Source of the DNA: an uncultured beta proteobacterium
GTDB lineage: Bacteria > Pseudomonadota > Gammaproteobacteria > Burkholderiales > Burkholderiaceae_C
Assembly: GCA_903920405.1 (NCBI GenBank)
Contig: CAIXMC010000067.1
Location: forward strand, 1 to 13,546
Reading direction: 5' to 3'
DNA: 13,546 nt
Shown here in pieces: positions 121-13,546 of this stretch. The notes beneath the pieces were generated by a model, which saw nothing but the letters and a program-made list of their open reading frames with translations, did not search any database and had not been told where the DNA came from. The number at the start of each line of letters is the position of its first letter. Within the stretch, counting starts at the first letter, position 1. A program made the position numbers and the translations under genes.

Positions 121-189
121 CTAATCACCTGTGATGCCCATTTTGAGGGTCTCCTAGGTGTGAACTACCAATCCAAAGCAATCGCCTGA
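121..189 (+). pseudogene. vapC 3' fragment (last 22 codons of a PIN toxin)
   Basis: The frame reads LITCDAHFEGLLGVNYQ and ends at TGA 187-189. It matches the C-terminus of the intact PIN toxin at 12549-12941 with two differences in 22 residues. It contains the last conserved PIN aspartate (TCD). Everything upstream of this point is unlike vapC: no start, no first acidic residues, no antitoxin gene. The fragment cannot make a nuclease. It is the left edge of a long direct repeat whose right copy starts at 12873, so it records a duplication or recombination breakpoint inside vapC. Sequence upstream of 121 stays in frame for a few codons but does not resemble the toxin. Confidence 0.85.
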
Positions 190-795
190 TAACCTATTTT
201 CACCCATGCCCCGCGACCCCCATACCCAACCCCTGTTCAGCCCCAAGCTGATAGCCAACCGTTTCCCAGCAAAAGAGCTGCCACCCACGCACCGCGAAGC
301 CATTCTTCAATGGATTGGCAGCCTCAAAACTGGGCTAAACAAGGAAAAGGAAGAATCCATCCGGCCAGCGTTTTTACAGCGCTTTTTTGTTGATCTGCTG
401 GGTTATCAATTGATGGGGGGACCGGTGTGGACGCTGCACCATGAAAAGGGCGCGGCCACAGGTTCTGCCGATGCGGCTTTGGGCACGTTTACAGGTGAGC
501 AGCGCCAGGTGGTAGCCCCGTTCGAGCTGAAAGGCCCCAAGACCAGCAACCTCGATGCCTTGATGTCCGGTCGTCACAAAAGCCCGGTGCAGCAAGCCTG
601 GGAATACGCCAATGACCTGCCGGGCAGCCAGTTTGTGCTGGTCAGCAATTGCGTTGAAATTCGCCTGTACGCGCTGGGCTATGGTCGGGCTGCTTACGAG
701 AGCTGGCAGATAGCCGAGCTGCTGCAACCTGAGCGCTACGCCAGTTTTATCGGGCTGCTTTGTGCCGCCAACCTGCTCTCTCACGCCACCCAGTC
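121..795 (+). repeat. Left copy of 12.75-kb-spaced direct repeat (vapC tail + R-M gene start)
   Basis: This stretch is closely related to 12873-13546: vapC codons to stop, a short spacer (18 versus 17 bases), the ATG, and at least 196 codons of the restriction-methylase gene. Comparing the two translations by eye gives about 16 differences in 196 residues. Many synonymous changes also separate the copies, so they are not a fresh duplication. The right limit is set only by the end of the window; the homology probably goes further. Confidence 0.9.
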
Positions 796-1864
796 GCTGC
801 TCAAAGACAACGCGGTGCAAGAGCGGGAAATTACCCAGGCGTTGTACTGCGATTACAAGGCGCTTCGTCAGGATTTGATTTTGGGTCTGCACCACCAAAA
901 CCCGACGGTTGTTTTTGCCGATTTGGTTCGCCATGCCCAAAAGTTAATTGACCGGCTTTTGTTCATTGCCTTTGCCGAAAGTCGCAACCTGTTGCCCAGA
1001 GGCTCGATTGCAAAGGCCGCCAGCCACATTGACCCCTACAACCCGCAGCCTCGCTGGGCGAACTTTGTGGCACTGTTCAAGGCGGTGGACAAAGGCAACC
1101 CCTACCTGAAAATCCCGTCCTACAACGGCGGCCTGTTTGCGCCGGATGCTGCGTTGGAGCAGTTAAAGGTCAGTGACACCCTGGTGAACAGTTTTCTCAA
1201 ACTGGCTGGCTATGACTATGCACAAGAGGTCAGTGTGACGGTGCTGGGGCGCATTTTTGAGCAAAGCATCAGCGATTTGGAACACATTGCCAGCCTGGGC
1301 GACATCAGCAGCTTTGCGCAGACTGTCCAAAGCACAACCAGCAGCAAAAAGGCAGTGCAGGGCAAACGCAAGCGTGATGGCGTGGTCTATACGCCCGACC
1401 ACATCACCCGATTTATCGTTGAACAAACGCTCACCCCCACTTTGCAAGCGCGCTTTGATCAACTTCATAAAGACTATTATTCTGATAGTGAACTATGCAC
1501 GTCTGACAAGCGTTTGCGGCCATTTATACCCTCATCGGTGTCGGCTGAAAATGTTGCCGAATATGGGTTCTGGCTGGCCTGGCAAGAGGTACTGACGCAT
1601 TTCAGGGTGTGCGACGTGGCCTGTGGATCGGGGGCTTTTTTGGTGGCAGCGTTTGATGTGTTCAAGGAGCAATACACCCATTTGATATCAGCCGAGCGTC
1701 ACTGTGCGACCGGCAAGAATTGGCTGAATAGATTCAGACTTCCTGATCCGCACCAAGCACAGGTAGCAAAAATGATGGAATCGAGAATGGCACCTTGTGG
1801 AAGCGGCATCCTGCCGCTTTTAGTTTGTCAATCGCCAAGATGGCGCTTCCCCGAACGCAGATGA
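206..1864 (+). pseudogene. Truncated type IIG restriction-methylase (nuclease domain and MTase motif I only)
   Basis: An intact family member would be a single-chain restriction endonuclease and adenine-N6 methyltransferase (Eco57I-like). The N-terminus has a PD-(D/E)xK-type nuclease: D89 in SADAALG and E107-x-K109 in FELKG. A helical linker follows, then DGVVYTPDHITRFI (about 391-404) at the start of the methylase, and motif I, CDVACGSGAFL (about 469-479). Family similarity stops around residue 490-500; the catalytic NPPY motif and target-recognition domain are absent. The last 60 or so codons run into inverted repeats, and the frame ends at TGA 1862-1864. The ATG at 206 is 17 bases after the vapC stop with no clear Shine-Dalgarno, so start by coupling is likely, as in the right copy. 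No internal stop precedes the break, so the loss may be recent. The product should lack methylation and sequence recognition. Confidence 0.85.
1799..1850. repeat. REP-like palindrome
   Basis: GGAAGCGGCATCCTGCC (1799-1815) pairs with GCCAAGATGGCGCTTCC (1834-1850), 14 of 17 positions, across an 18-base loop. The left arm also contains a smaller perfect hairpin, AGCGGC-ATCCT-GCCGCT. The GCGGC-ATC-TGCC character is typical of dispersed extragenic palindromes in proteobacteria. The palindrome at 11841-11885 has a similar start (GTAGGCGCGG against GTGGAAGCGG). Confidence 0.7.
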
Positions 1865-1937
1865 ATTTGATTCAAAAAGCCATCATCTGTAGAGCTGGTT
1901 TTGAGGATATTCAACTCAAATCCGCCTGCGTTCGGGG
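1849..1937. repeat. 89-bp inverted repeat with 22-base arms
   Basis: Arms at 1849-1870 and 1916-1937 match at 19 of 22 positions, including a perfect CCCCGAACGCAG / CTGCGTTCGGGG pair and an ATTTGA / TCAAAT pair. The 45-base middle adds a weaker CAAAAAGCC / GGTTTTG pairing. As RNA this would be a long hairpin on either strand. It lies 87 bases past the last gene of the leftward cluster and could help end transcription there, although no U-run follows. Confidence 0.65.
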
Positions 1938-2023
1938 CTTCAACAAAGTGCCATTGGGCATTCCACGCGGATCAGGAAATCTGAGATTGGTTGGCGTTTC
2001 TGAAATCATGGTGATATGTCGTA

Positions 2024-2503
2024 TCAGGAATCAGTGCCAAGTAAAATTGCAACAATTGAATCACCTGACGATACACGATCACCAGGCCGTTTTAGTAATT
2101 CTTTTACAAAACCAGAACAACTGCAATAAAATTCAAGTCCTTCTGCCTTGGACAATAGGTCACCTTTCTCAACAAACGCACCCTTTTCTATAAAACATTC
2201 TCCCAATACAATGGGGTACCTCCAGTTGATTGCCAGCTTTATTTCACGCAGGGATGTTTTATTGCCGTTTGAATATAATTCTGCAACAAGTCTGTTGATG
2301 CCATGGTTTGTTTTTTTGATTTTCTCTTTGAGATTGATATTCAATTTCTCAATCGTTGTTATTTTTTCTAATAGCTTATCCACTTCAAATTGCTTGTTCT
2401 GTAGGGTTTTTTGATGCTCTTTCAATGTATTTACAGAAGATTTAGCGAGGGTATTCAGGTAATCGACTGCATTTTTATTCAGAGTATGGTCAAGAAAATT
2501 CAT
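2024..2503 (-). CDS. Shared N-terminal coiled-coil module with C-terminal biotinyl/lipoyl-like domain
   Basis: 159 aa. It opens with MNFLDHTL...YLNTLAKSSV, the module also found at the start of the proteins encoded at 2743-3729 and 4292-4570. A charged coiled coil follows to about residue 70. Residues about 100-155 read like a biotinyl/lipoyl hammerhead: FVEKGDLLSK, then a short strand, CSGFVKELL, and PGDRVSSGDSIVAIL. The turn that carries the modified lysine in carrier proteins is LEFYCSCSG here, so no lysine is available and the domain is probably a binding or assembly fold rather than a cofactor carrier. The ATG at 2503 has AAGGAAA about 7 bases upstream. It is the last gene of the leftward cluster, 239 bases after the FGE-like gene. 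The domain call rests on pattern alone; function is unknown. Confidence 0.75.
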   Translation of the reverse strand: MNFLDHTLNKNAVDYLNTLAKSSVNTLKEHQKTLQNKQFEVDKLLEKITTIEKLNINLKEKIKKTNHGINRLVAELYSNGNKTSLREIKLAINWRYPIVLGECFIEKGAFVEKGDLLSKAEGLEFYCSCSGFVKELLKRPGDRVSSGDSIVAILLGTDS

Positions 2504-2703
2504 CTTTGATTTCCTTTTTTATCGAGTGTTGCCTGATAGTTGGTGAAAAATCAGCATCGCTGGCCTGCAACATTCATGCATTGATGCAAAAATGGTTGAA
2601 TCTGTTAATAATAATGATAGCAACCTACGCTTATTCCAAGCGGGATGGAGGCCATTTTGATGAATAAAACCGCTTCAAGAGGGCCGCTGGATGTTTCTAA
2701 CAA

Positions 2704-2723
2704 GTAACCAGGGAACTGGTAAC
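2704..2723 (-). terminator. Small hairpin after the FGE-like gene (weak terminator or processing site)
   Basis: GTAACCAG (2704-2711) faces CTGGTAAC (2716-2723) across GGAA, with one A-A mismatch. It lies about 20 bases after the stop of the FGE-like gene in the direction of transcription. No U-run follows, so it is at most a weak stop. The rest of 2504-2742 shows no gene that I can support. Confidence 0.3.
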
Positions 2724-2742
2724 AACGTATAGAAGAGAAGAT

Positions 2743-3729
2743 TCAAGGAGTAAGCAGAGTTTGTGCCAGACGCAAACCGATATTGCCAAAGCGGTTATCA
2801 GTGCTGTCACTGCCGCGAAAGGCCAAACGCAAACTTGCAGGCGTGTCGAGCCAGGAGCCACCCCGAAGTACCCTTTTTTTGTAATTGCCTCGACTCGTCC
2901 AGGCACTTCCGTCGGTCGCTGCTCCGTTGTAGTCGTTGTGCTTGATGTCTTGCACCCATTCCCAGACATTACCGTGTACATCAAAGAGTCCAAAGTCATT
3001 GGCCTGTTTCTGGGCGACGGGATGGGGACGGGAACCACTGTTGTCTCTGTACCAGGCGTATTGACCCAGTTGTTTTTCCTCATTGCCAAAACACCACTTG
3101 CCGGCAGTCCCTGCCCGGGCTGCGTATTCCCATTCGGCCTCGCTTGGCAAGCGATAGGTATTGCCGGTTTTACTGTTGAGCTTCTGGATAAATTGCTCAA
3201 CCTCAAGCCAACTGACATTTTCTACCGGACAGTCATCGCCATCCTCCTTGAAATGACTTGGGTTGCTGCCCATCACGGCCTGCCATTGCTTTTGCGTGAC
3301 GGGAGTCTTGCCCATTGCAAAACTGCTGACTTTGACGGTATGAGGGGGCTTTGCATCCTCGAAGTCGTTGCTGCCCATCGTAAAGCTGCCTGCTGGTATC
3401 ACCACCAATTCCGGACAAATGGCCGCCCACAATAGCTTGTCATAGTTTTTTTCCAATATCTCTAAATTTTTCTCGACAGCTTGAATATTACCTTCCAGAG
3501 CAGTGATTCTATTTAATAAAACATGATTCTGCTTCAGACTATTTTCCAGTAATTTTGTTTGCCCTGTCAAATTTTCTGTCAGCATGGCCACCTGATTTAC
3601 AAAATCAGGAACTTTAGCTTGAGTTTTTTCCAGCAAATTATTTTGCTCAGCCAGTTTGACTGATAAAAGAGCCAATACATCGAGATAACCTTTAGAAATC
3701 TCAGGCAGGGTGTAATCCAGAAAATGCAT
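2743..3729 (-). CDS. Shared N-terminal coiled-coil module with FGE-sulfatase (SUMF1-like) domain
   Basis: 328 aa. Residues 1-100 are the shared module (MHFLDYTLPE..YLDVLALLSVK.AEQN) and a coiled coil. Residues about 107-324 are a full formylglycine-generating-enzyme-type domain: VVIPAGSFTMGS, KTPVTQKQWQAVMG, CPVENVSWLE, YRLPSEAEWEYAARAG, FGLFDVHGNVWEW and VLRGGSW. True FGE has two active-site cysteines just after RGGS; here that stretch is LDTPASLRLAFR with D295 and L300 at those places, so oxidase activity is unlikely. Such domains often serve as C-lectin-like binding units in conflict-system proteins. The ATG at 3729 follows AAAAAGGTAACAC, the same leader as the gene at 4570. Its 5' flank also keeps a remnant like the end of the third GTPase gene (3730-3780). 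Confidence 0.9.
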   Translation of the reverse strand: MHFLDYTLPEISKGYLDVLALLSVKLAEQNNLLEKTQAKVPDFVNQVAMLTENLTGQTKLLENSLKQNHVLLNRITALEGNIQAVEKNLEILEKNYDKLLWAAICPELVVIPAGSFTMGSNDFEDAKPPHTVKVSSFAMGKTPVTQKQWQAVMGSNPSHFKEDGDDCPVENVSWLEVEQFIQKLNSKTGNTYRLPSEAEWEYAARAGTAGKWCFGNEEKQLGQYAWYRDNSGSRPHPVAQKQANDFGLFDVHGNVWEWVQDIKHNDYNGAATDGSAWTSRGNYKKRVLRGGSWLDTPASLRLAFRGSDSTDNRFGNIGLRLAQTLLTP

Positions 3730-3780
3730 GTGTTACCTTTTTAGAAAATGCTGTCAAATCAATCGCGTAGTCATTGAACA
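3730..3780 (-). other. Relic similar to the 3' end of the third GTPase gene
   Basis: Read leftward, this stretch carries a frame containing NDYAIDLTAFSKK followed by AAGGTAACACATG. The end of the GTPase gene just before 4570 reads DDYAIHSAATSER followed by AAGGTAAAAACATG. Aligning the two flanks by eye gives about 24 matches in 33 bases through the coding part, plus the shared ribosome-binding leader. This suggests the FGE-like gene arose by copying an adaptor gene together with the tail of the GTPase gene. The remaining bases to 3863 show nothing I recognise. Confidence 0.5.
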
Positions 3781-3863
3781 AAAGCCAGAGCTTGCAGTCA
3801 GACTGGAGGGGGTTTTGGAATGGATGGCAAGAAATCATTGTTGTGAACCACAAGCCAAAAACG

Positions 3864-4220
3864 TCATGACTGACTGGTGCGCACCAAACGCACTGCCAAT
3901 CTTTGGGTGCGTAGGTAGTGGGTGCTTTTACCATTTTGAAAAAATACACCCCAAGCATCAGTCGAACCGAACTCGGTTGACGACCAAAACCATGTTTCAG
4001 AGTCAGGAAATACTTCTTCGGAAATATTTGGATGAATATCCCTCAAAATCAGCGTTTTGAGTTGCTCAACCGTCGGTAATCGCCAGTGACAAAATTCTGC
4101 AAATGATATGCGGTTAAAGCGATTCATGGCATCTTGCCAAGTGTATTGACCACACTCTCGTTCACATTTCCACATTAACCCGGTTTTTGGGTCGGTGATC
4201 GTTCCATTGCCATTGTCCAA
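3864..4220 (-). CDS. DUF1566 (Lcl C-terminal-like) domain, downstream half of a frameshifted adaptor gene
   Basis: The frame gives a classic DUF1566 domain: YLDNGNGTITDPKTGLMWKC, YTWQDAMNRFN, CHWRLPTVEQLKTL, then ETWFWSSTEF and AVRLVR near the end. No ATG or GTG exists in frame; the only possible start is TTG 4220, which lies inside the opening motif and has no Shine-Dalgarno. The frame is open upstream to 4310, across the end of the coiled-coil frame at 4292-4570. A -1 shift at the A-run (4307-4310) would join the two into one protein of about 235 aa with the same build as the FGE-like neighbour. I think it is the second half of that gene, split by a real mutation, a sequencing error or programmed slippage. 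DUF1566 is a probable lectin- or adhesin-like binding domain without known catalysis. Confidence 0.7.
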   Translation of the reverse strand: MDNGNGTITDPKTGLMWKCERECGQYTWQDAMNRFNRISFAEFCHWRLPTVEQLKTLILRDIHPNISEEVFPDSETWFWSSTEFGSTDAWGVFFQNGKSTHYLRTQRLAVRLVRTSQS

Positions 4221-4291
4221 ATAACCGTATTTAAGCTGCCAAACTTTGCTGCCTCTTGTATCACTCCGTTCTAAAAACTTATTTTGATTTT

Positions 4292-4570
4292 CTACGACAG
4301 TTCTACTTTTCTATCCAACCACGCCGCGTTCTTTTCCAGTTTTACCAACTTATTCTCTAAAACATCAATTTGCATCTGGCATTTTTTCATCAGATTGGCT
4401 TGTTCTGCCGAATGGGTGGACAATGCTGCGATTTGACTGGCCTGAAAAAGATTTTGCGCTTTTGTTTTTTCCATCAAATCATTTTGTTCCGCCTGCTTGA
4501 CGGATAACTGCGCCAATGCATCCAGATAATGTTGCGCTGCGTCAGGCAAGGTATGGTCTAAAAAATTCAT
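4292..4570 (-). CDS. Shared N-terminal coiled-coil module, upstream half of a frameshifted adaptor gene
   Basis: 92 aa as read: MNFLDHTLPD..HYLDALAQLSVKQAEQN, then coiled coil to about residue 85, ending at TAG 4292-4294. It is the clearest copy of the module shared with the genes starting at 3729 and 2503, and unlike them it has no C-terminal domain in frame. Bases 4307-4310 (AAAA on this strand) lie five codons before the stop; slipping back one base there enters the DUF1566 frame. The ATG at 4570 has AAAGG about 6 bases upstream and comes 4 bases after the stop of the third GTPase gene, which implies tight coupling. An upstream in-frame start at 4621 would overlap the GTPase gene and lack the module's conserved beginning, so I reject it. 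Confidence 0.8.
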   Translation of the reverse strand: MNFLDHTLPDAAQHYLDALAQLSVKQAEQNDLMEKTKAQNLFQASQIAALSTHSAEQANLMKKCQMQIDVLENKLVKLEKNAAWLDRKVELS

Positions 4571-4574
4571 GTTT

Positions 4575-6086
4575 TTACCTTTCAGAAGTGGCTGCCGAAT
4601 GAATGGCATAGTCATCCGCATAACGGGATTGCAATAACGAGAGTGTCATCAGTGTGGCAATCACTTTTTCGGCTAGGGGTTCGTTGATCACTTGCTGTGC
4701 TGTCTCGACCAACGCCGTAAAGCTGTTGTCCACGGCGGCTAGGGCTTGCTTGTAGGCTGGCGCAAGTTTGGCATCGAAGTGTGCAGGTAGATCTTCCGTT
4801 TTGGGGGTCAGATCGCCGATCGCCTGTTCGGCTTGTTTGAAAAACGCCTTGACCGGCTCCAGGGCTTGCCTGCAATTGGCCAGCCAGTAATGTTTCCACC
4901 AGGCCGATAGCGGATGTTCTGCCGGCAGGTCTTGCGGGGCTTTGGACATAAAACTGGCCAAATCAGTCGCACTGCACCCCAGTTGGTACAACCAGGTATC
5001 TCGCACTTTCTGCACCATGCCCTTCGTATCCAGACCGCGCAGGCGGTGGATGTTCATGCCGCCCACAAATTCATCGCCCTTGCGTGCGCGCCCCAGCAGT
5101 TGACGTGCTTGCACCAGCATCGCTTGGGTGTGGGCTACCGGCGGGCCAACATTCCATTCCTTTGGCCACTGCCGCAAGGCCGACAGCCAAGGGTCGGCTA
5201 CCTTGTCTTTGTGCCCCAGGGGCAACAGCAGTGCCTGCCAGAAATCGTCTCGAAAAGTCTGAAGTGCCTGCATTTTCATTGTGCCGAAATCAACGCAAAA
5301 CAGGTTTAGATTCAGTTCATCGGCAGCACGATCCAGTTTTTCCCACTGAGCCAACACCAGTGTTAGTGCGATGTTTTCCATACGTGGGGCATCTTTGGCG
5401 GGGCAGTGGGTAACGATAAACAGCAGTGTCGGTTCTTCGAGAAAATCAGCATTGGCGAGTGCATCAAGAAATTCAAGCAGACGGGCTGCATTTATTTCAC
5501 TTTGCAGCCGGGTGACATTCGTCACATAGACAAGCGCCAGGTTGTGGTGGCCGGCCATGATCTGCGTGGCATCACTCTCGGCCAGCACATCATCGCCCGA
5601 ATTCCAGCCCGGCGTGTCAATCAGAAACAGGCGTTTCGGGCTGGCATCATCGCTAAAGCCATCGCCAGAAGGCAGGATCAGCCGTGGTTCAGGCAGAGTC
5701 AGTCGCAGGCGGTGCAGCAGCGGGTTGTAGGCTGTCAGTGCATCACGCTCTGGGAAATCGGTCAGTATCTTGAGCGTTACTGCCGGGGTGTAATCCTGTT
5801 CGCGTGCTATCAGTGTCAAGACGGGCACCTCGCCGTGGGTGATTTCGAGTTGCAGCCGGGTTTGCCGCTCCAGCGAACTCACCGGAAACAGTGCGGGCGG
5901 AATCAGTTCGCCCAACAGCTCGCGCAGCAGCCGCGTTTTGCCAGCAGAAAACTCGCCAATCACACGCGCAGTCAGCACGCCATCACTGAGGGTTGTGGTG
6001 CGCTCCATCTGGTCGGCAAAAGCTTGCAAGGCTTTTTCTACGGTTTGAGAGCGGGGAAATTGGCTAGGGTTGGATGGGGTGTGCAT
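4575..6086 (-). CDS. Third GTPase, dynamin/GTPase-superfamily-like, 503 aa
   Basis: The P-loop is GEFSAGKT (44-51) and the G3 motif is LIDTPGWNS (155-163). No standard G4 (N/T-K-x-D) is visible; the expected place reads VTHCPAKD (about 225-232). The C-terminal half is helical (repeated AxxQAL-type helices to the end), without a clear membrane segment. GEFSxGK is shared with the larger GTPase at 9076-11391, which suggests common descent or partnership. I chose ATG 6086: it sits 19 bases after the previous stop with GGAT just upstream, while the longer frame from 6176 would overlap that gene by 71 bases. The gene is followed 4 bases later by the first adaptor gene. A role as regulatory or heteromeric partner of the two larger GTPases is inference. 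Confidence 0.85.
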   Translation of the reverse strand: MHTPSNPSQFPRSQTVEKALQAFADQMERTTTLSDGVLTARVIGEFSAGKTRLLRELLGELIPPALFPVSSLERQTRLQLEITHGEVPVLTLIAREQDYTPAVTLKILTDFPERDALTAYNPLLHRLRLTLPEPRLILPSGDGFSDDASPKRLFLIDTPGWNSGDDVLAESDATQIMAGHHNLALVYVTNVTRLQSEINAARLLEFLDALANADFLEEPTLLFIVTHCPAKDAPRMENIALTLVLAQWEKLDRAADELNLNLFCVDFGTMKMQALQTFRDDFWQALLLPLGHKDKVADPWLSALRQWPKEWNVGPPVAHTQAMLVQARQLLGRARKGDEFVGGMNIHRLRGLDTKGMVQKVRDTWLYQLGCSATDLASFMSKAPQDLPAEHPLSAWWKHYWLANCRQALEPVKAFFKQAEQAIGDLTPKTEDLPAHFDAKLAPAYKQALAAVDNSFTALVETAQQVINEPLAEKVIATLMTLSLLQSRYADDYAIHSAATSER

Positions 6087-6105
6087 AGGGATCCATTCAA
6101 GATTT

Positions 6106-6822
6106 TCAGGATTGAAGAACGGTGACCAACTGGCGGCTTTCCCAAACGATGCGTTCGGCTGCACCAAGCCAGCCATGTTGCACCAGGTTGGCCAAGGGTT
6201 GCGCTTCCAAAAAGACCGGCAGACAGGTCAAAAAATCATACCGAACGTGGTGGGTGTCAAGTACGCCCTGACGCCATTCGTCGCCAGCCTGGACCAGGGT
6301 GATGAGTGTCGATAGGCCAGCGCGGCAGGTTTGGTAGGCCAGACTGTTGCCAGACAACACCAGTGGGGCCAGCAGCAGGTGATGATTTTTTTGCCCCCAG
6401 TGCTGCGTCTGCCGCTGGGCGTCGTCGTGCTGCACGGCATTCACCGTTTCGCTGATCAGTGCTGTTGTTTCAGCGGTCAGCGCCGGATGGTAGGTGGCCA
6501 ACCCACAACACGCCTGCCACAGCACCGGCTGGGCGCGCAGCAGGTTCTGGCGATGCACGGGCAGGTTTTCATCGATTGCATCGTCCAAAATTCGGGCGTA
6601 CAGATGCACCCGTGCGCAATCAGCCAGCAGGGCATGGGTGGTGGCGGGAACAGGCTCTGCCAGCCACGGCTCGGCGAGCAAGCATAAAAAGTCAGGGAAA
6701 TGATCGGCCACATCATGCAGCCGCCGAACTGCCTGCGTGGCCACTGCGCCCTCGCTGGAGGGCTGAATTTGCGCAATGTCGGCTTTCAGGACATCGCTCA
6801 GGTGCTTTTTAATGCAGGACAT
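6106..6822 (-). CDS. All-alpha protein resembling class I isoprenoid synthases
   Basis: 238 aa from ATG 6822. The predicted chain is almost all helix. Two acidic motifs are spaced as in trans-isoprenyl/terpene synthases: LYARILDDAIDEN (74-86, like the first DDxxD) and LVQAGDEWRQGVLD (176-189, like the second Asp-rich QxxDDxxD). The second is weak (GDEW rather than DDxxD), so activity is uncertain; the fold could serve lipid binding. Its start overlaps the end of the preceding GTPase gene by 14 bases and the next gene follows after 19, so it is co-translated with the GTPases. A GTG start at 6855 is possible but would increase the overlap to 47 bases. If active, the substrate would be a prenyl diphosphate at or near the membrane. 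The family call is moderate; place in the operon is firm. Confidence 0.65.
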   Translation of the reverse strand: MSCIKKHLSDVLKADIAQIQPSSEGAVATQAVRRLHDVADHFPDFLCLLAEPWLAEPVPATTHALLADCARVHLYARILDDAIDENLPVHRQNLLRAQPVLWQACCGLATYHPALTAETTALISETVNAVQHDDAQRQTQHWGQKNHHLLLAPLVLSGNSLAYQTCRAGLSTLITLVQAGDEWRQGVLDTHHVRYDFLTCLPVFLEAQPLANLVQHGWLGAAERIVWESRQLVTVLQS

Positions 6823-9064
6823 CGATCGCGTTTTGGATGGCGACCGCTTCCTCACGCAGTCGGGTCAGTGTGGCCTCTTTTTCACGCGGGCCGGCGTTGG
6901 CTTGTTCAGTCAGTGCATCAATTTCAACCAACCGTTCGCCCACCAAAGCATCAACACGGTCTTCCCAGTAGCTTTTGATGCGCGATCGCATCAGATCGGT
7001 CATGCTGGCGGTTTGCTGGTCGAAATTGCGCAACCACTGGCTGACCGCTCGCTCGGCGTGGCGCAACAGCAGTGCCTGGCGCTCCTGGCGCTGGCTGATT
7101 TGGGCATCGCGGTGTTTTTGTTCGGCTTGCTGCTGGCTGCGGGCAAGCTCAAACTGCAAGCGTGCCTGTTCCTTTTTGTTTTGTTCCAGCGCCAGGCCGG
7201 TCAATTGGCGTTCGTTGGCGATGTCTTCGTTGCGCGCCAGCGCACGGCGCAATTGCTGGGTTTGGGAATCAATCTCGGCCAGCACTTGTGCCTGCTCGGC
7301 ACGCGCTTGCGGATCGATGATTTCCTCGTCTTGCGGTGCGCTGCCGAACATGCTACCGAACTTTTCGCCCCAATAACCCAGCGAGAGGACTTCGAGCACC
7401 CCCAGCTTGTTCATGGCTTGTTCGGGAATGCCAGCCACCTTGCGACCGAGTTGAATGCCCTTGGCTACCTTCACGGTCTTCGTTACGGTGTTGGCCACTT
7501 TGGCTGTCTTAACGGCCACATTGACCATTTTTGCGCCCTTGGCCACCAACGTGGCCACTTTAGCCCCGACCGCTGCCGGACTGACAAACATCAGTCCGAT
7601 GTCGGCAATTTCACCCAAAAAGCGACCGACCGCAGCGCCACTGCCGCCTTCGCTGATGCGCTGCACAATGCGCGGCAGGGGTTGCTCAGCAATTTGCTGA
7701 CGCTGCATCAGCAGTTCACGCATGGCACGCTCTTCTTCGTTCATGTCAGCGACTGACAGGGAGGCCAGTTTCTGCTCGACGGCTGCAAAATCTTCCTGCC
7801 TGTCTTGCAGTTCGTGCTGCAACTGGGTGAGTTTGCCGATGTCGAGAAAGTCATTCAATTCGATACTTTCTGGCGCGGGCAGACGCAGGTTGAACGCGTC
7901 CACCTGCGCAGGTGGCAGTTGCAACTTGCCGTAACTGCCTGACAGTTCAACCAAACTTTGCGCCATGTCGGCCTGCGATGTGCGCAACAGTTTGCCACCC
8001 TGGTTGCCAAAATCTTCCCAGCCCGACTCATCAGTCAGTTGGCTGCAAAGCGACTTGAGCTGGCCGGCCAGGCGCTGGCGCGCTTTTTCAGTGGCTAAGG
8101 CGCATTGCTGCAAGGTGCTGTCGCGGTCGTGCTGCTGCTGGTTGTAGAGGCCGGCCTTGAACTCGGACAGGGCTTGTTTGCGTTGCATCAGTTCTGCGTG
8201 AAAGGCTTGCATGGCCTGCTCTGACAGGACTTCGCAACTGCGCTGTGCCTGAGCGTTTTGCCCCAGTGCGTTTTGCAGGATGGGCTTTAATTCGGCGCGA
8301 AACCGACGTTGGCGAATATCGGCCAGATCTTCTTTGGCGCGGGCGATGAAATCCAGCACATCATCCTGCCCCAGGCCGTTTTTGCTGCAAGAGGCCAGGC
8401 GAGTTTTCAAGCCGGTGGCAGCTTCAATTTGCGCTGCCCACTGGGTTAGAGACGGCGCTTTTTCGCCACGTGCCACAGCGGACTCGACCTCGTCCCAGCG
8501 GGTTACCATGACTTTGACGCGCTTGCCGTTCTGGCTGATGATTTGCAGGGTTTCGAGATCGGTCTGCGACGGGCCACGCGGGTCAACCAGGTACAGCACC
8601 GCATCGGATTGCTGAATTTGCGCCACGGTGTATTCGCGGTGCGAGGCAGACAGGCTGCCCAGGCCCGGCAGGTCGATGATGGACAGTCCCTTGAGCCAGT
8701 CCAGTGGCAGATTCAGAACGGCACAGGCAGCGCCTTCTGGCGCCTGTGTGGTGGCCGCGGCAAAACCCGGTTCGTCGATCGGCAGCAGACTGCCATCCGA
8801 GCCTAACAGTTGCATCAGGCGCTGGGGGCCATATTCGATAAAGGTCGGCAAGGCGGTGGTTTCCTCCATGGCGGCCTGTAACAAAAGCACGCCCAGCAGC
8901 ATGTTGAGCAAGCTGCTTTTGCCGACCGAAAACGACCCGACCAGAGTCAATCGCAGCGGTGCATCGGTTTGCAACAGGGTGGCAGCCAGGTCGTCAAGGG
9001 CGCTTTGCCAATCGGCAGGCAGCAGGTTTTGGAGTTGGGACAGGAGGGGTTGAGGGGCAGTCAT
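6809..9064 (-). CDS. Dynamin-like GTPase with hydrophobic Gly/Ala-rich segment, 751 aa
   Basis: The G domain is N-terminal: P-loop VGSFSVGKSSLLN (42-54), switch-I threonines in MEETTALPTF (66-75), G3 IDLPGLGS (130-137) and G4 VTRWDEV (187-193). Long helical stalk regions follow (about 250-460). A glycine/alanine/valine-rich segment at about 475-545 (RFLGEIADIGLMFVSPAAVG, then repeated AKV/KTAKVA units) could insert in or lie on a membrane as a paddle does in bacterial dynamin-like proteins. A second coiled coil (580-680) and a charged C-terminus follow. ATG 9064 begins 11 bases after the preceding GTPase stop; the upstream AGAAAG is a weak ribosome site. Bacterial dynamins often occur in pairs encoded side by side, and this gene with 9076-11391 fits that. 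Membrane remodelling is the family role; the target here is unknown. Confidence 0.9.
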   Translation of the reverse strand: MTAPQPLLSQLQNLLPADWQSALDDLAATLLQTDAPLRLTLVGSFSVGKSSLLNMLLGVLLLQAAMEETTALPTFIEYGPQRLMQLLGSDGSLLPIDEPGFAAATTQAPEGAACAVLNLPLDWLKGLSIIDLPGLGSLSASHREYTVAQIQQSDAVLYLVDPRGPSQTDLETLQIISQNGKRVKVMVTRWDEVESAVARGEKAPSLTQWAAQIEAATGLKTRLASCSKNGLGQDDVLDFIARAKEDLADIRQRRFRAELKPILQNALGQNAQAQRSCEVLSEQAMQAFHAELMQRKQALSEFKAGLYNQQQHDRDSTLQQCALATEKARQRLAGQLKSLCSQLTDESGWEDFGNQGGKLLRTSQADMAQSLVELSGSYGKLQLPPAQVDAFNLRLPAPESIELNDFLDIGKLTQLQHELQDRQEDFAAVEQKLASLSVADMNEEERAMRELLMQRQQIAEQPLPRIVQRISEGGSGAAVGRFLGEIADIGLMFVSPAAVGAKVATLVAKGAKMVNVAVKTAKVANTVTKTVKVAKGIQLGRKVAGIPEQAMNKLGVLEVLSLGYWGEKFGSMFGSAPQDEEIIDPQARAEQAQVLAEIDSQTQQLRRALARNEDIANERQLTGLALEQNKKEQARLQFELARSQQQAEQKHRDAQISQRQERQALLLRHAERAVSQWLRNFDQQTASMTDLMRSRIKSYWEDRVDALVGERLVEIDALTEQANAGPREKEATLTRLREEAVAIQNAIDVLH

Positions 9065-9075
9065 GATGTTCTTTC

Positions 9076-11391
9076 TCAGGCTTTCAGGGCGGTTTGGGTT
9101 TGTGTCTGTAAGGCAGCCAGTTCAATTTGTGCGGTTGCCAACTGGGCTTTACGCTGGGCAATGGTGGCCTGGCTTTGCTGCAACAGGGTTTGAACTTCCT
9201 CACGTTTGGCGCGTTTGGCGTTGTTGGGTTCCAGGTATTGATCTTGTACGCAGCCTTGTAGCAATTCCAACTGGTTCATAAACAGCGTGTGAATGGCCTT
9301 GGCAGCGTGGTCTTGCAGGTAGCGGATGCGCTGGTCAAGCTGACCGGCTGTGCTTTTAATGAGTCGATTGACCGAGTCACGGATCAGGTCGGCTTGATCT
9401 TCTTTCGCCTGCTTCTCCAGTGCAGCTTGCTTGCGTTCAAAATCCGCGAGCTCCCGCTCGTATTTCTTTTGTGCTCTCTCCAGCGACTGGCGAGTGCCGG
9501 TCTTGCGCTCTTCTTCAGCAGTAATTTGGGCCATGCGCGTCTCCTTGTCAGCCAGTGCTTTTCTCTGTTCTTCGCGCTCGGCTTTCCAAGCCTCAACATT
9601 GCTGTTATCGGTGCGCTCAACGGTTGCGTATTTATCGTCGCTCCACATGCCACCTTTCTTGACTCGCTCTCTTTCATGGTGCACACTGGGTGACGGTTGT
9701 GGCCCGAGTTGTTCCAACATGCGTTCAGCCCTCTTGACAGCTTGACGAGCCATATCATGCGCTGCGGTGTTGGCACTATGCCGATCCTTGTCGGATTCAA
9801 TGCTGTCGATCTGTTCCCTGCGTGCGGCAATCTCTTGCTGGAGTTCAATTGCCTTCTGGTGGTGCGTTTCGATGCCTGATAAATCCAGATCGAATCGAAC
9901 ATCCAATGACGGAAGCTCGATGTCCACTTTGGCCATCTGGCCTTTGATTTGCGATACATGCTTGGCCATTTGCTCTTTGTAGTTAGTGCGCAGCCCTTCA
10001 AGAACCTTGGTCAATGCCTGCTTTTGGCTTTCCCACTCTTGGGTCACTTGTGCAGAGACGCTGTGAAACTGTTCGTCCAGACTTTCGGGCAAACCGATTT
10101 GTTTGACACCTTTGGCGATGGATTTTTTGATGTAGGCTTCATTCACTTGGATTTCGATCTCCGTTTTCAGATCGGCCAGTGGGGCAACCAGTTTGTGACG
10201 TACCTCCTCCTTGCAGTGATTGGCAGCAGCGTCATGCTCGAACTTTGAGTCCGAAGTGACACGTCTGAACTTTTCATCGAGCAGCTTGATGTCTTTCTCA
10301 AGGCTTTCCAGTTCACGCTGCCGCTCTGCCAGCGATTTATCTGAATTCAACTGCTCAGCCTCATCCTTGAGACCGGCAGACAGTTGGCTCTGGATATGCG
10401 AAAGCTGCTGTAGCGGCTTGCGGTAAATCTGCTCCATGGCTTCTCCGCTGGTAAACATGTGGGCGATACGCTGGGTCAAATGTGCGATGCCGGATCGTCT
10501 CTGGTGATCGGGGTTGTTGCTCAGCGCCCACTTTGCACTGACACCCATCAAATGGCTTGAATTGGTCAGTAAATCAACTTCGGCCTTGGGTTGTTTCTCA
10601 AGGCGCTTCGCAAAATTGTTTTTGACCTTGTCCATTTTTTCCTGAACCCGAACGGACTCTGGCTTTTTCTGATCTTGCGCATCTTCGGGTTCCAGCACTT
10701 TGTCCCACCAGTTGACGACAGTGATGAACTTGTTGAAATTGGTGCGAATCGTGCTTGAGAGGAAATCCCACTCTGAAGCCGATCCGCCCAGTTGCGTGGT
10801 GTTCTGCACCCAAAGTGCAATATGGGCTTCGGCGATGGCTTTGCGCGTGATGCCTTCATGGTGCTTCATCACTGACTCCAGTCCGGGTGTGTCAATCAGC
10901 ACCAGGCCTTTTTTGAGCAAGTCGTGATCCATGAACACCTCGATGTAATCCAGCGACCGGCGCACATGGGCATGGTTTTCATCAAGTTCGGTGCCCCAGC
11001 GAACCAGTTCCGAGTCATCGTGCCACGGCATGTCTTCAAAGGGCTTATCGTCCTGGTAGTGGATGCGAATGAACCGGTTATGTTGTCCAGCAGGCAGGGC
11101 ACGGATAAAGGTATTGATGGCGGTGGTGGCCTCCATCGCCGTTGGCAGCAATTCAATCCCCAGCAGGGCATTGACCAGACTGGATTTGCCGCGTGAAAAC
11201 TCGCCAATCACCACCAGACGCACCTGATCAGCGTTCAGTGCATCCAGCAGTTCGTCAAACTTGGCGTGCGAAGTCTTGAGTTCGGCGCTACCGAACTCAT
11301 CAAACAGCACTTTAGTTTTTGCAAGGTAATCCTTGGCCGTCTTAATATGGCTTTGGCGCTTTGCAAGGCTCTCATCGAGGACATTTGACAT
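9076..11391 (-). CDS. Dynamin-like GTPase with long coiled coil, 771 aa
   Basis: The G domain starts after an N-terminal helix: P-loop VIGEFSRGKSSLVNALLG (61-78), switch-I threonines MEATTAINTF (86-95), G3 LIDTPGLES (165-173) and G4 VVNWWDKV (225-232), where the usual lysine of N-K-x-D is replaced by tryptophan. From about 380 to the end the chain is dominated by charged coiled coil (LESLEKDIKLLDEKFRR, AERMLEQLG, KYERELADFERKQAALEKQ). There is no obvious transmembrane segment, so membrane contact may come from the partner encoded at 6809-9064. ATG 11391 is preceded by GGAG with good spacing; the longer frame from 11538 would overlap the zinc-ribbon gene and adds residues unlike the family. 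Residues 49-78 and the layout match bacterial dynamin-like proteins. The nearest known group (for example LeoA-like) cannot be settled by eye. Confidence 0.92.
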   Translation of the reverse strand: MSNVLDESLAKRQSHIKTAKDYLAKTKVLFDEFGSAELKTSHAKFDELLDALNADQVRLVVIGEFSRGKSSLVNALLGIELLPTAMEATTAINTFIRALPAGQHNRFIRIHYQDDKPFEDMPWHDDSELVRWGTELDENHAHVRRSLDYIEVFMDHDLLKKGLVLIDTPGLESVMKHHEGITRKAIAEAHIALWVQNTTQLGGSASEWDFLSSTIRTNFNKFITVVNWWDKVLEPEDAQDQKKPESVRVQEKMDKVKNNFAKRLEKQPKAEVDLLTNSSHLMGVSAKWALSNNPDHQRRSGIAHLTQRIAHMFTSGEAMEQIYRKPLQQLSHIQSQLSAGLKDEAEQLNSDKSLAERQRELESLEKDIKLLDEKFRRVTSDSKFEHDAAANHCKEEVRHKLVAPLADLKTEIEIQVNEAYIKKSIAKGVKQIGLPESLDEQFHSVSAQVTQEWESQKQALTKVLEGLRTNYKEQMAKHVSQIKGQMAKVDIELPSLDVRFDLDLSGIETHHQKAIELQQEIAARREQIDSIESDKDRHSANTAAHDMARQAVKRAERMLEQLGPQPSPSVHHERERVKKGGMWSDDKYATVERTDNSNVEAWKAEREEQRKALADKETRMAQITAEEERKTGTRQSLERAQKKYERELADFERKQAALEKQAKEDQADLIRDSVNRLIKSTAGQLDQRIRYLQDHAAKAIHTLFMNQLELLQGCVQDQYLEPNNAKRAKREEVQTLLQQSQATIAQRKAQLATAQIELAALQTQTQTALKA

Positions 11392-11444
11392 GGTGGGTTC
11401 TCCAAAAAAAGTGACAGATTTGAAAGGCTTTGTTTGCAGGGCTA

Positions 11445-11654
11445 TCAGCGCCAGAAGCGTTTGATCTGGTCGCTCAACTGCCCAAGTGCCGCCTGTGCAG
11501 CGTTGGCTCTGCTGGTTGTTAGCGGCGCATGGGCGCACTTGGGGCAGACAGTGTAATAGTCGCCGGGCCCCAGGGCATCGCTGCGCGGGGTCACGGTTTT
11601 TGACCAGCCGCAGGCCGGGCAGGTGTAGGTTTTGGGGGATGGTGCAATCGGCAT
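11445..11654 (-). CDS. Small zinc-ribbon protein, 69 aa
   Basis: Two CxxC pairs, CPAC (C12, C15) and CPKC (C37, C40), about 22 residues apart form a likely zinc ribbon, followed by a helical tail (SRANAAQAALGQLSDQIKRF). It is the first gene of the leftward cluster, 53 bases before the dynamin-like gene. The frame is open up to 11762, but the extra N-terminal residues look noncoding and ATG 11654 sits directly before the ribbon (MPIAPSPKTYTCPACGW). The Shine-Dalgarno is weak. It could be a nucleic-acid-binding regulator or a structural partner of the GTPases; nothing in the sequence decides. Confidence 0.65.
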   Translation of the reverse strand: MPIAPSPKTYTCPACGWSKTVTPRSDALGPGDYYTVCPKCAHAPLTTSRANAAQAALGQLSDQIKRFWR

Positions 11655-12552: not shown

Positions 12553-12941
12553 AGTTGCCAGACACCTGCGTCTGGATTGAAGCACTGGCGGGCACTCCCA
12601 CCGGTCAGCGTTATTACGATGTATTGCAACGCACAGACACCCTGATCGTGCCCACCTTGGTGCAATACGAACTGCGCCGCTGGTGTTTGCGTGCCATTGG
12701 TGCTGGTATGGCCGAAGACATCGCCGACAAAGCCATTGCCGCCATGCGAGCATCTCGTGTGCTTGTTTTGGATGAAGGTATCGCTCTTTATGCCGCCGAA
12801 CTAGCCCACCAGCACAGATTGGCCACCGCTGATGCCCTGATTTATGCCACAGCCTTGCGCGAAAAAGCCGAGTTGATCACCTGTGATGCCCATTTTGAAG
12901 GTCTTTTAGGTGTGAACTACCAACCCAAAGCACTCGCCTAA
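12549..12941 (+). CDS. vapC: VapC-type PIN-domain toxin ribonuclease
   Basis: 130 aa, a normal VapC length. The PIN acidic residues are in place: D5 in PDTCVWIE, E41 in VQYELRRW, D95 in LATADALIYATA and D113 in LITCDAHF. These bind a divalent metal and cut RNA, in known VapCs usually tRNA or rRNA; the target here is unknown. It starts within the antitoxin stop (ATGA). The final 22 codons recur at 121-189 as a fragment, and the next gene, the restriction-methylase, begins 15 bases after its stop, so all three may be one transcript. Loss of this locus by recombination between the repeats would remove the antitoxin as well. Confidence 0.92.
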   Translation: MKLPDTCVWIEALAGTPTGQRYYDVLQRTDTLIVPTLVQYELRRWCLRAIGAGMAEDIADKAIAAMRASRVLVLDEGIALYAAELAHQHRLATADALIYATALREKAELITCDAHFEGLLGVNYQPKALA

Positions 12942-13546
12942 CAACCCCTGCAGCCCATGCCCCGCGATCTCTACACCCAACCCCTGTTCAGCCCCAAGCT
13001 GATAGCCAACCGTTTCCCCGCAAAAGAGCTGCCACCCACACACCGCGAAGCCATTCTTCAATGGATCAGCAGCCTTAAAAGCGGACTGGACAAGGAAAAG
13101 GAAGAATCCATCCGGCCAGCGTTTTTACAGCGCTTTTTTGTTGATCTGCTGGGTTATCAATTGATGGGGGGCCTGGTGTGGACGCTGCACCATGAAAAGG
13201 GCGCGGCCACAGGTTCTGCCGATGCGGCTTTGGGTACGTTTACCAGCGAGCAGCGTCAGGTGGTCGCACCGTTTGAACTCAAAGGCCCCAAAACCGGCAA
13301 CCTGGATGCCCTGATGCCCGGCCGTCACAAAAGCCCGGTGCAGCAAGCCTGGGAATACGCCAACGACCTGCCGGGCAGCCAGTTTGTACTGGTCAGCAAT
13401 TGCGTTGAAATTCGCCTGTATGCACTGGGCTACGGTCGCGCGGCGTATGAAAGCTGGCAGGTATCCGAACTGTTGCAACCCGATCGCTACGCCAGCTTTG
13501 TCGGGCTGCTCAGTGCGGACAACCTGCTCTCGGATGCCACCCAGGC
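12873..13546 (+). repeat. Right copy of 12.75-kb-spaced direct repeat
   Basis: This is the counterpart of 121-795, beginning inside vapC at the codon for L109 and continuing into the restriction-methylase gene to the window edge. The left boundary of homology is sharp: upstream of 12873 the sequence is intact vapC, upstream of 121 it is unrelated. The repeat is direct and could recombine. Confidence 0.9.
12957..13546 (+). CDS. Type IIG restriction-methylase, N-terminal part (runs off the window)
   Basis: 196 codons are visible without a stop. The protein begins MPRDLYTQPLFSPKLI and carries the PD-(D/E)xK-type nuclease residues D89 (SADAALG), E107 and K109 (FELKG), followed by the conserved SPVQQAWEYANDLPGSQF region. 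By comparison with the left copy, the methylase (YTP and motif I near residues 395 and 470) should follow beyond the window. The role would be cutting unmodified foreign DNA and methylating host DNA with one polypeptide. There is no Shine-Dalgarno before ATG 12957, which is 15 bases after the vapC stop, so reinitiation after vapC is likely. It is probably the functional copy, the left one being truncated; this cannot be confirmed here. Confidence 0.85.
   Translation, partial: MPRDLYTQPLFSPKLIANRFPAKELPPTHREAILQWISSLKSGLDKEKEESIRPAFLQRFFVDLLGYQLMGGLVWTLHHEKGAATGSADAALGTFTSEQRQVVAPFELKGPKTGNLDALMPGRHKSPVQQAWEYANDLPGSQFVLVSNCVEIRLYALGYGRAAYESWQVSELLQPDRYASFVGLLSADNLLSDATQ

Follow-up and report, generated by a model that had tools for sequence, protein, structure and literature searches.

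An operon combining three dynamin-type GTPases with a protein of predicted prenyl-synthase fold in an uncultured betaproteobacterium, and its possible role at the membrane

The stretch of DNA analysed here (the window) is 13,546 nucleotides long, and is the whole of contig C67 of the fragmented 2.68-Mb genome (458 contigs) of an uncultured betaproteobacterium. From position 11654 down to 2024 it carries a row of genes that all run leftward, on the minus strand: an open reading frame (ORF) for a zinc-ribbon protein, the genes that we call DynA, DynB, Iso and DynC, and three small modular proteins. The eight ORFs checked all have ATG starts and no internal stops. Gaps of 11, -14, 19 and 4 bases between the core genes and the first of the small proteins, given in a preliminary description of this DNA, were reproduced exactly from the gene calls, the start of Iso overlapping DynB by 14 bases. 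Dynamin_N is above the Pfam cut-off in DynA, DynB and DynC, and the earlier reading of the row as a single leftward operon with three dynamin-type GTPases holds.

DynA (9076..11391; 771 amino acids (aa); Dynamin_N, E 1e-24) and DynB (6809..9064; 751 aa; Dynamin_N, E 8e-12) have features of a dynamin pair, being adjacent genes 11 bases apart, with Dynamin_N in both and with intact G1 and G3 motifs, which in DynA are GEFSRGKS and DTPG. Sequence searches of the PDB match DynA to BDLP1 (2j68, E 5e-13) and to a Campylobacter jejuni dynamin-like protein (5owv, E 1.5e-10), and DynB to IniA (6j72, E 4e-9) and again to 5owv (E 1e-8). DynB has a hydrophobic, paddle-like stretch at about residues 479-535 (hydropathy peak 1.74), which is kept in the homologue in a distant genome, G056, described below; no strongly hydrophobic segment was found by hydropathy in the window copy of DynA. 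DynC (4575..6086; 503 aa; Dynamin_N, E 2.6e-6) consists of a dynamin G domain, in which the G4 motif is degenerate (THCP), and a short helical part of about 200 aa. It is worth adding that one DynC homologue (P0031, 704 aa) has an N-terminal PF08364 region, which we take to be the region associated with translation initiation factor IF2, and which is perhaps another borrowed module. Elsewhere in the genome of the window, on contig C252 (locus L021 of genome G000, 162-4270), two more genes for dynamin-family GTPases stand on either side of another ORF.

Iso (6106..6822; 238 aa) had been described as isoprenoid-synthase-like. Its AlphaFold model (predicted local distance difference test, pLDDT, of 97) bears out a class I isoprenoid-synthase/prenyltransferase fold, despite the lack of any Pfam match for the window protein at E<=1. 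The model aligns with MoeN5 and with class I prenyl synthases over 227 of the 238 residues, with identities of 8-14% in the structural alignments listed. Searches at the level of sequence were much less informative: a Pfam scan of 60 Iso members (E<=0.1) matched 11 families, none of them a prenyl-synthase family, with scattered matches of which the best was 2.8e-4 in two members, and a PDB sequence search with the Iso profile gave a single match, at chance level (E 0.034). Iso carries the motifs DDxxDE, KNHH and QxxDExxQ. The first of these, the first Asp-rich motif, is invariant in 60 of 60 homologues. The canonical second Asp-rich motif (DxxxD or DDxxD) is absent and QxxDExxQ stands in its place, with position 181 being D in 54 of the 60 homologues and E in the other 6. 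Iso thus shares with MoeN5 and the class I trans-prenyl synthases their first Asp-rich motif (DDxxD) and, judged by the model, their fold, and differs from them in its 238-aa length, its lack of a Pfam prenyl-synthase match and its unusual second motif. In one Iso homologue, P0235, an N-terminal extension resembled by eye the head of the small proteins described next, but a fusion of this kind was rejected because 1840 of 20,000 shuffles scored as high.

The three small proteins share an N-terminal head followed by a coiled coil, beginning MNFLDHTL, MHFLDYTL and MNFLDHTL, after which their tails diverge into an Lcl_C, an FGE-sulfatase and a barrel-sandwich-like domain. For adaptor 1, the head and coiled coil (4292..4570, 92 aa) and the Lcl_C tail (3864..4220; Pfam Lcl_C, E 4e-24) are two ORFs in the window, and the preliminary description treated the first as a separate gene. 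Comparison with the closest named locus found, L008, shows that in fact the two form one gene: L008 has a single intact ORF of 235 aa (6401-7105), whereas the window copy is one base shorter (707 against 708) and a frameshift breaks it in two. A 109-aa reading of the head ORF, from an ATG at 4621, overlaps DynC, and the 92-aa start at 4570 was used. Adaptor 2 (2743..3729; Pfam FGE-sulfatase, E 5e-50) has a head 42% identical to that of adaptor 1. Active FGE enzymes carry two cysteines at a particular place; the only cysteines of adaptor 2 are at 105, 167 and 213, and none is where the active enzymes have theirs. Adaptor 3 (2024..2503) was recognised by a head profile match, and its biotinyl/lipoyl-like tail gives Pfam matches below the cut-off only (RnfC_N 0.033, Biotin_lipoyl 0.042). 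Biotinyl and lipoyl domains carry a modified-lysine motif, and adaptor 3 has AEGLEF where this would be expected. The tails of these proteins look catalytically dead. A diversity-generating retroelement was considered and set aside: the Pfam scan of window proteins matched no reverse-transcriptase family, a template repeat not having been sought, and the single RVT_1 match in the whole genome is on another contig, C350.

The head was found in few places. As a query in its own genome it finds only the three places in the operon at E<=1, and a search over proteins found it in one of 102 candidates, P0121, a relative of the FGE protein with a head region 97% identical. A combined head profile run against 303 genomes (E<=0.01) gave matches in 10. 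Eight strong places (E<1e-10) all lie within three operons, in genomes that were themselves the source of the profile rows or the sister of such a genome; seven weak matches (E 4e-4 to 9e-3) lie in seven other genomes, and six of these begin only at model position 18, in the coiled coil. Three small ORFs in G056 have in common with the window heads the pattern FL...YLxxLA, with six invariant columns in the 8 head rows. A profile of the window heads searched against 1442 ORFs had two of these G056 heads as its best non-self matches (E 0.94 and 2.2), the reverse search with a G056 profile found adaptor 3 at E 0.21, and a profile-profile comparison gave P 0.036. Shuffles reached the scores of the G056 heads in 54, 167 and 234 of 10,000 cases individually and their summed score in 2 of 10,000; in the reverse test the window heads gave 3485, 1139 and 28 of 10,000, one of the three being clear.

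At the upstream end of the row, the zinc-ribbon ORF of the preliminary description (11445..11654; 69 aa) is present, but its Zn_ribbon_3 match is weak (E 2.4e-5; 24.0 bits, below the cut-off of 27). It lies 53 bases upstream of DynA and is a candidate member of the unit only.

A search of 369 genomes from the class found DynC in three, the genome of the window included, and DynB near full length in the same three. DynB had six matches in total at E<=1e-10, the other three (G250, G057 and G136; E 5e-15 to 2e-11) being through the GTPase part only; the regions around them matched neither Iso nor DynC at E<=1e-3, and they were rejected as other dynamins. The two further genomes with DynC, G056 and G193, belong to one genus, and are a distant gammaproteobacterial metagenome-assembled genome (MAG) and its sister. 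In G056 there follow in a row on one strand DynC, DynA, DynB, the three small coiled-coil ORFs and Iso, with identities to the window of 40% for DynA, 35% for DynB (along its length), 28-29% for DynC and 42-43% for Iso. G193 has the first five genes of this row, its contig ending inside the fifth, and Iso was not found elsewhere in that genome. An observation apart is that G056 has a 118-aa fragment of a PtuA-type AAA ATPase (L019, 6930-7286; E 1.7e-23), some 4 kb on from Iso in the downstream direction. The gene order is A-B-Iso-C-heads in the window and C-A-B-heads-Iso in G056, and the two are therefore not one recently copied block. The preliminary description had looked to conserved order elsewhere for support and would have taken its absence as a refutation. 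All four core genes do occur together in G056, and DynC and Iso are apparently linked on many contigs; the refutation thus fails as far as the gene set goes, but the order is not fixed, and the interpretation given there is borne out in part. We have a very high degree of confidence that the operon is a real, conserved unit.

The link between DynC and Iso extends much further. Protein database searches, with 7998 candidates scored in each, gave 186 DynC and 151 Iso homologues at E<=0.001, and the best 120 of each were compared. For 21 of the 120 Iso rows the longest contig is exactly as long as that of a listed DynC row, which serves as a proxy for the two genes sharing one contig; shifting the lengths by 1-10 bases either way (20 offsets) gave only 0-3 matches. 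Two of the equal-length contigs, of 2620 and 2689 bases, have only 382 and 436 bases outside DynC and Iso, and the genes must therefore be neighbours on both. Over the 21 pairs together with the window and G056, the pairwise distances of DynC and Iso correlate with r = 0.91, a value reached by none of 5000 label shuffles (maximum 0.45). Among named organisms, DynC and Iso are on contigs of equal length in Pseudomonas sp. WPR_5_2, in Psychromonas sp. MB-3u-54 (locus tags CXF72_13110 for DynC and CXF72_13115 for Iso) and in a Methylococcaceae MAG. Aeromonas occurs in both lists in separate rows, and among the matches listed Halomonas and Thiorhodospira appear for DynC alone and Thiothrix, Methylovulum and Citrifermentans for Iso alone. 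On these sequence comparisons, DynC and Iso show the behaviour of two genes inherited together.

Among 399 genomes of the order DynC was found in one, and among 398 of the phylum Iso was found in one, in each case the genome of the window itself, while DynC homologues from distant, named genera, Pseudomonas, Aeromonas and Halomonas among them, are 46-53% identical. This rarity, taken with the identity across distant genera, suggests that the set has spread horizontally. Carriage by plasmids or viruses was considered and set aside: among plasmids no match was found for DynB, DynC or Iso (DynA not being searched there); among phages there was none for DynC, the only one of the four sought in them; and viral contigs gave no relatives of Iso or DynC (DynA again not being searched).

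The flanks agree with the preliminary description, which had noted restriction and toxin-antitoxin genes beside the operon. The gene on the left, truncated near 1740, encodes a type IIG restriction enzyme and matches the PADLOC profile REase_MTase_IIG (E 1.2e-51) over positions 40-463 of its 1066, and there is also a pair of MazE-like antitoxin and PIN genes. The boundary of the operon (1740-2023) is an interspersed repeat, to which 26 further pieces of the genome match (40 of 51 candidates having been scored), and a direct duplication (124-793 and 12876-13544, 89.6% identical), covering the end of the PIN gene and the start of the restriction gene, lies on both sides of the operon. L008 itself, a contig of 9.1 kb, comes from a MAG of an uncultured betaproteobacterium (isolate Loclat) and is 96.4% identical to the window operon over 8.8 kb. 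Its contig starts without the N-terminus of DynA. The DynA DNA (window 9000-10750) is 84-90% identical and the remainder of the operon 93-100%, with a mosaic boundary near 9000, and the sequence after adaptor 3 differs. Another Loclat MAG (L009, 5883-6347) has an isolated fragment corresponding to DynB residues 243-397, probably a remnant. The boundary repeat, the flanking duplication, the mosaic and changed flank of L008 and the L009 fragment together point to turnover at the locus.

The bacterial dynamins described so far come mostly in pairs, and to our knowledge what triggers them is an open question. DynA and DynB resemble such pairs (C. jejuni DLP1/DLP2, Nostoc BDLP1, Bacillus subtilis DynA) in being side-by-side dynamin genes, with sequence matches to the C. 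jejuni and Nostoc structures; the window adds a third, short dynamin, a partner of prenyl-synthase fold and the modular head proteins. A literature search found no publication whose title or abstract opening describes this combination, most subscription journals and preprints being outside its scope. B. subtilis DynA is reported to delay phage lysis (PMC8844932), and the dynamins of a Pseudomonas genomic island are reported as not active against the phages tried (PMC12595487). A parallel in plan is the DO-GTPase/GAP1 conflict systems, as outlined by Kaur et al. (2020, PMC7159879), which often have two GTPases, together with a constant further component and variable domains. These domains are often inactive and in some of the systems FGE-type, and in some cases they are attached through a small helical adaptor that occurs only there. 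The window appears to follow the same plan, its heads being possible analogues of that adaptor domain (GAAD), but with dynamin-family GTPases in place of DO-GTPases and Iso in place of GAP1. None of the families that Pfam matches in the window at E<=1 bears the name DO-GTPase or GAP1, for both of which Pfam has models. Since the GTPase and partner families appear to differ, the operon would work like a DO-GTPase conflict system and not be one.

Tentatively, and at somewhat less than even confidence, we propose that the operon encodes a membrane-surveillance module with a mechanism of defence at the membrane. DynA and DynB would form a heterotypic bacterial-dynamin pair assembling on the inner membrane, into which DynB would insert through its hydrophobic stretch. 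DynC, with its short G domain and degenerate G4, and Iso would form the control unit, in which Iso would bind, and probably transfer or condense, an isoprenoid diphosphate or a polyprenyl-linked lipid. The state of the lipids in the envelope, or else a lipid produced locally, would then set DynC and thereby the assembly of DynA and DynB. The head-bearing proteins would dock on the GTPases, with their dead binding domains (the C-type-lectin-fold FGE and Lcl_C domains and the barrel-sandwich) serving as recognition or decoy parts. The output would probably be sealing or remodelling of the membrane, so as to limit damage or lysis when the cell is attacked by phage or in some other way. The patchy distribution and the restriction and toxin-antitoxin flanks suit defence. 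Several points tell against this proposal, however. The putative defence role derives from location and distribution; DynA and DynB are found with DynC and Iso in two lineages only; the second motif of Iso is unlike the usual DxxxD/DDxxD, which may weigh on Iso as an active enzyme; the signs that the window heads and the small G056 proteins are related are weak and suggestive only; and the genes just downstream of Iso in G056 look, in our own reading of the sequence, like gltX and cysS.

Those last neighbours would fit an accessory machine for envelope maintenance and not defence, in which the dynamins and a prenyl-lipid enzyme would repair or remodel the inner membrane or make a special isoprenoid membrane lipid in certain environmental bacteria, and beside which restriction and toxin-antitoxin genes would be incidental. 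The fold of Iso, with its intact first Asp-rich motif, suggests lipid chemistry, and the searches of plasmids, phages and viral contigs that found no copy are in keeping with such a role. The very patchy distribution and the different downstream flank in L008 speak against it, as do heads with exchangeable dead domains, which in our judgement are unusual for housekeeping, and we think it on the unlikely side. It may also be that two or more modules lie side by side, a standard A/B dynamin pair and a separate DynC-Iso module, with the heads belonging to one of them. DynC and Iso are linked on many contigs and the A/B link is seen in two lineages only, the GC content (guanine plus cytosine) of the adaptor region (0.36-0.51) differs from that of the core (0.51-0.61), and the divergence from L008 is concentrated in DynA. 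Yet A, B, C, Iso and head-like small proteins recur in both lineages with the order rearranged, and the gene starts in the window are overlapping or tightly spaced; this explanation seems to us unlikely.

The operon might also be a diverged form of the LeoABC (Eleos-type) dynamin defence system to which further genes are added. In favour of this, the PADLOC LeoA profile matches DynA (1.9e-16) and DynB (5e-11), both dynamin GTPases like those of that system, and does so also in G056 (3.7e-19 and 1.3e-12), where LeoBC matches DynB as well (1.3e-6), over residues 7-185 only. The bit scores in the window are modest, however (58 for DynA, 40 for DynB), nothing in the window matches LeoBC at E<=1, and the combination of LeoA with LeoB/LeoC partners that defines the system was not found. 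Nor do the remaining proteins have a convincing PADLOC match: DynC reaches LeoA at only 0.004, and in G056 not at E<=0.1; window Iso has no family at E<=1; and the head proteins are at chance level (FGE protein to Cas12c, 0.001 over the coiled coil; adaptor 3 to DruC, 0.14). We regard this explanation as very improbable.

The strongest form of the membrane-surveillance proposal is that the operon is a categorically new kind of immune machine, a dynamin triad gated by a DynC-bound Iso (as isoprenoid-diphosphate enzyme or sensor) that reads the state of the lipid carriers of the envelope, with exchangeable dead recognition or decoy modules docked through their heads. We consider it rather unlikely as it stands. 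The co-inherited Iso nevertheless gives a concrete, testable handle on triggering, through a possible coupling of lipid chemistry or isoprenoid sensing to a dynamin. The shared-head proteins appear to repeat, in another GTPase family, the plan of a constant core plus exchangeable modules seen in other conflict systems, and DynC and Iso provide two clean markers for surveying the system.

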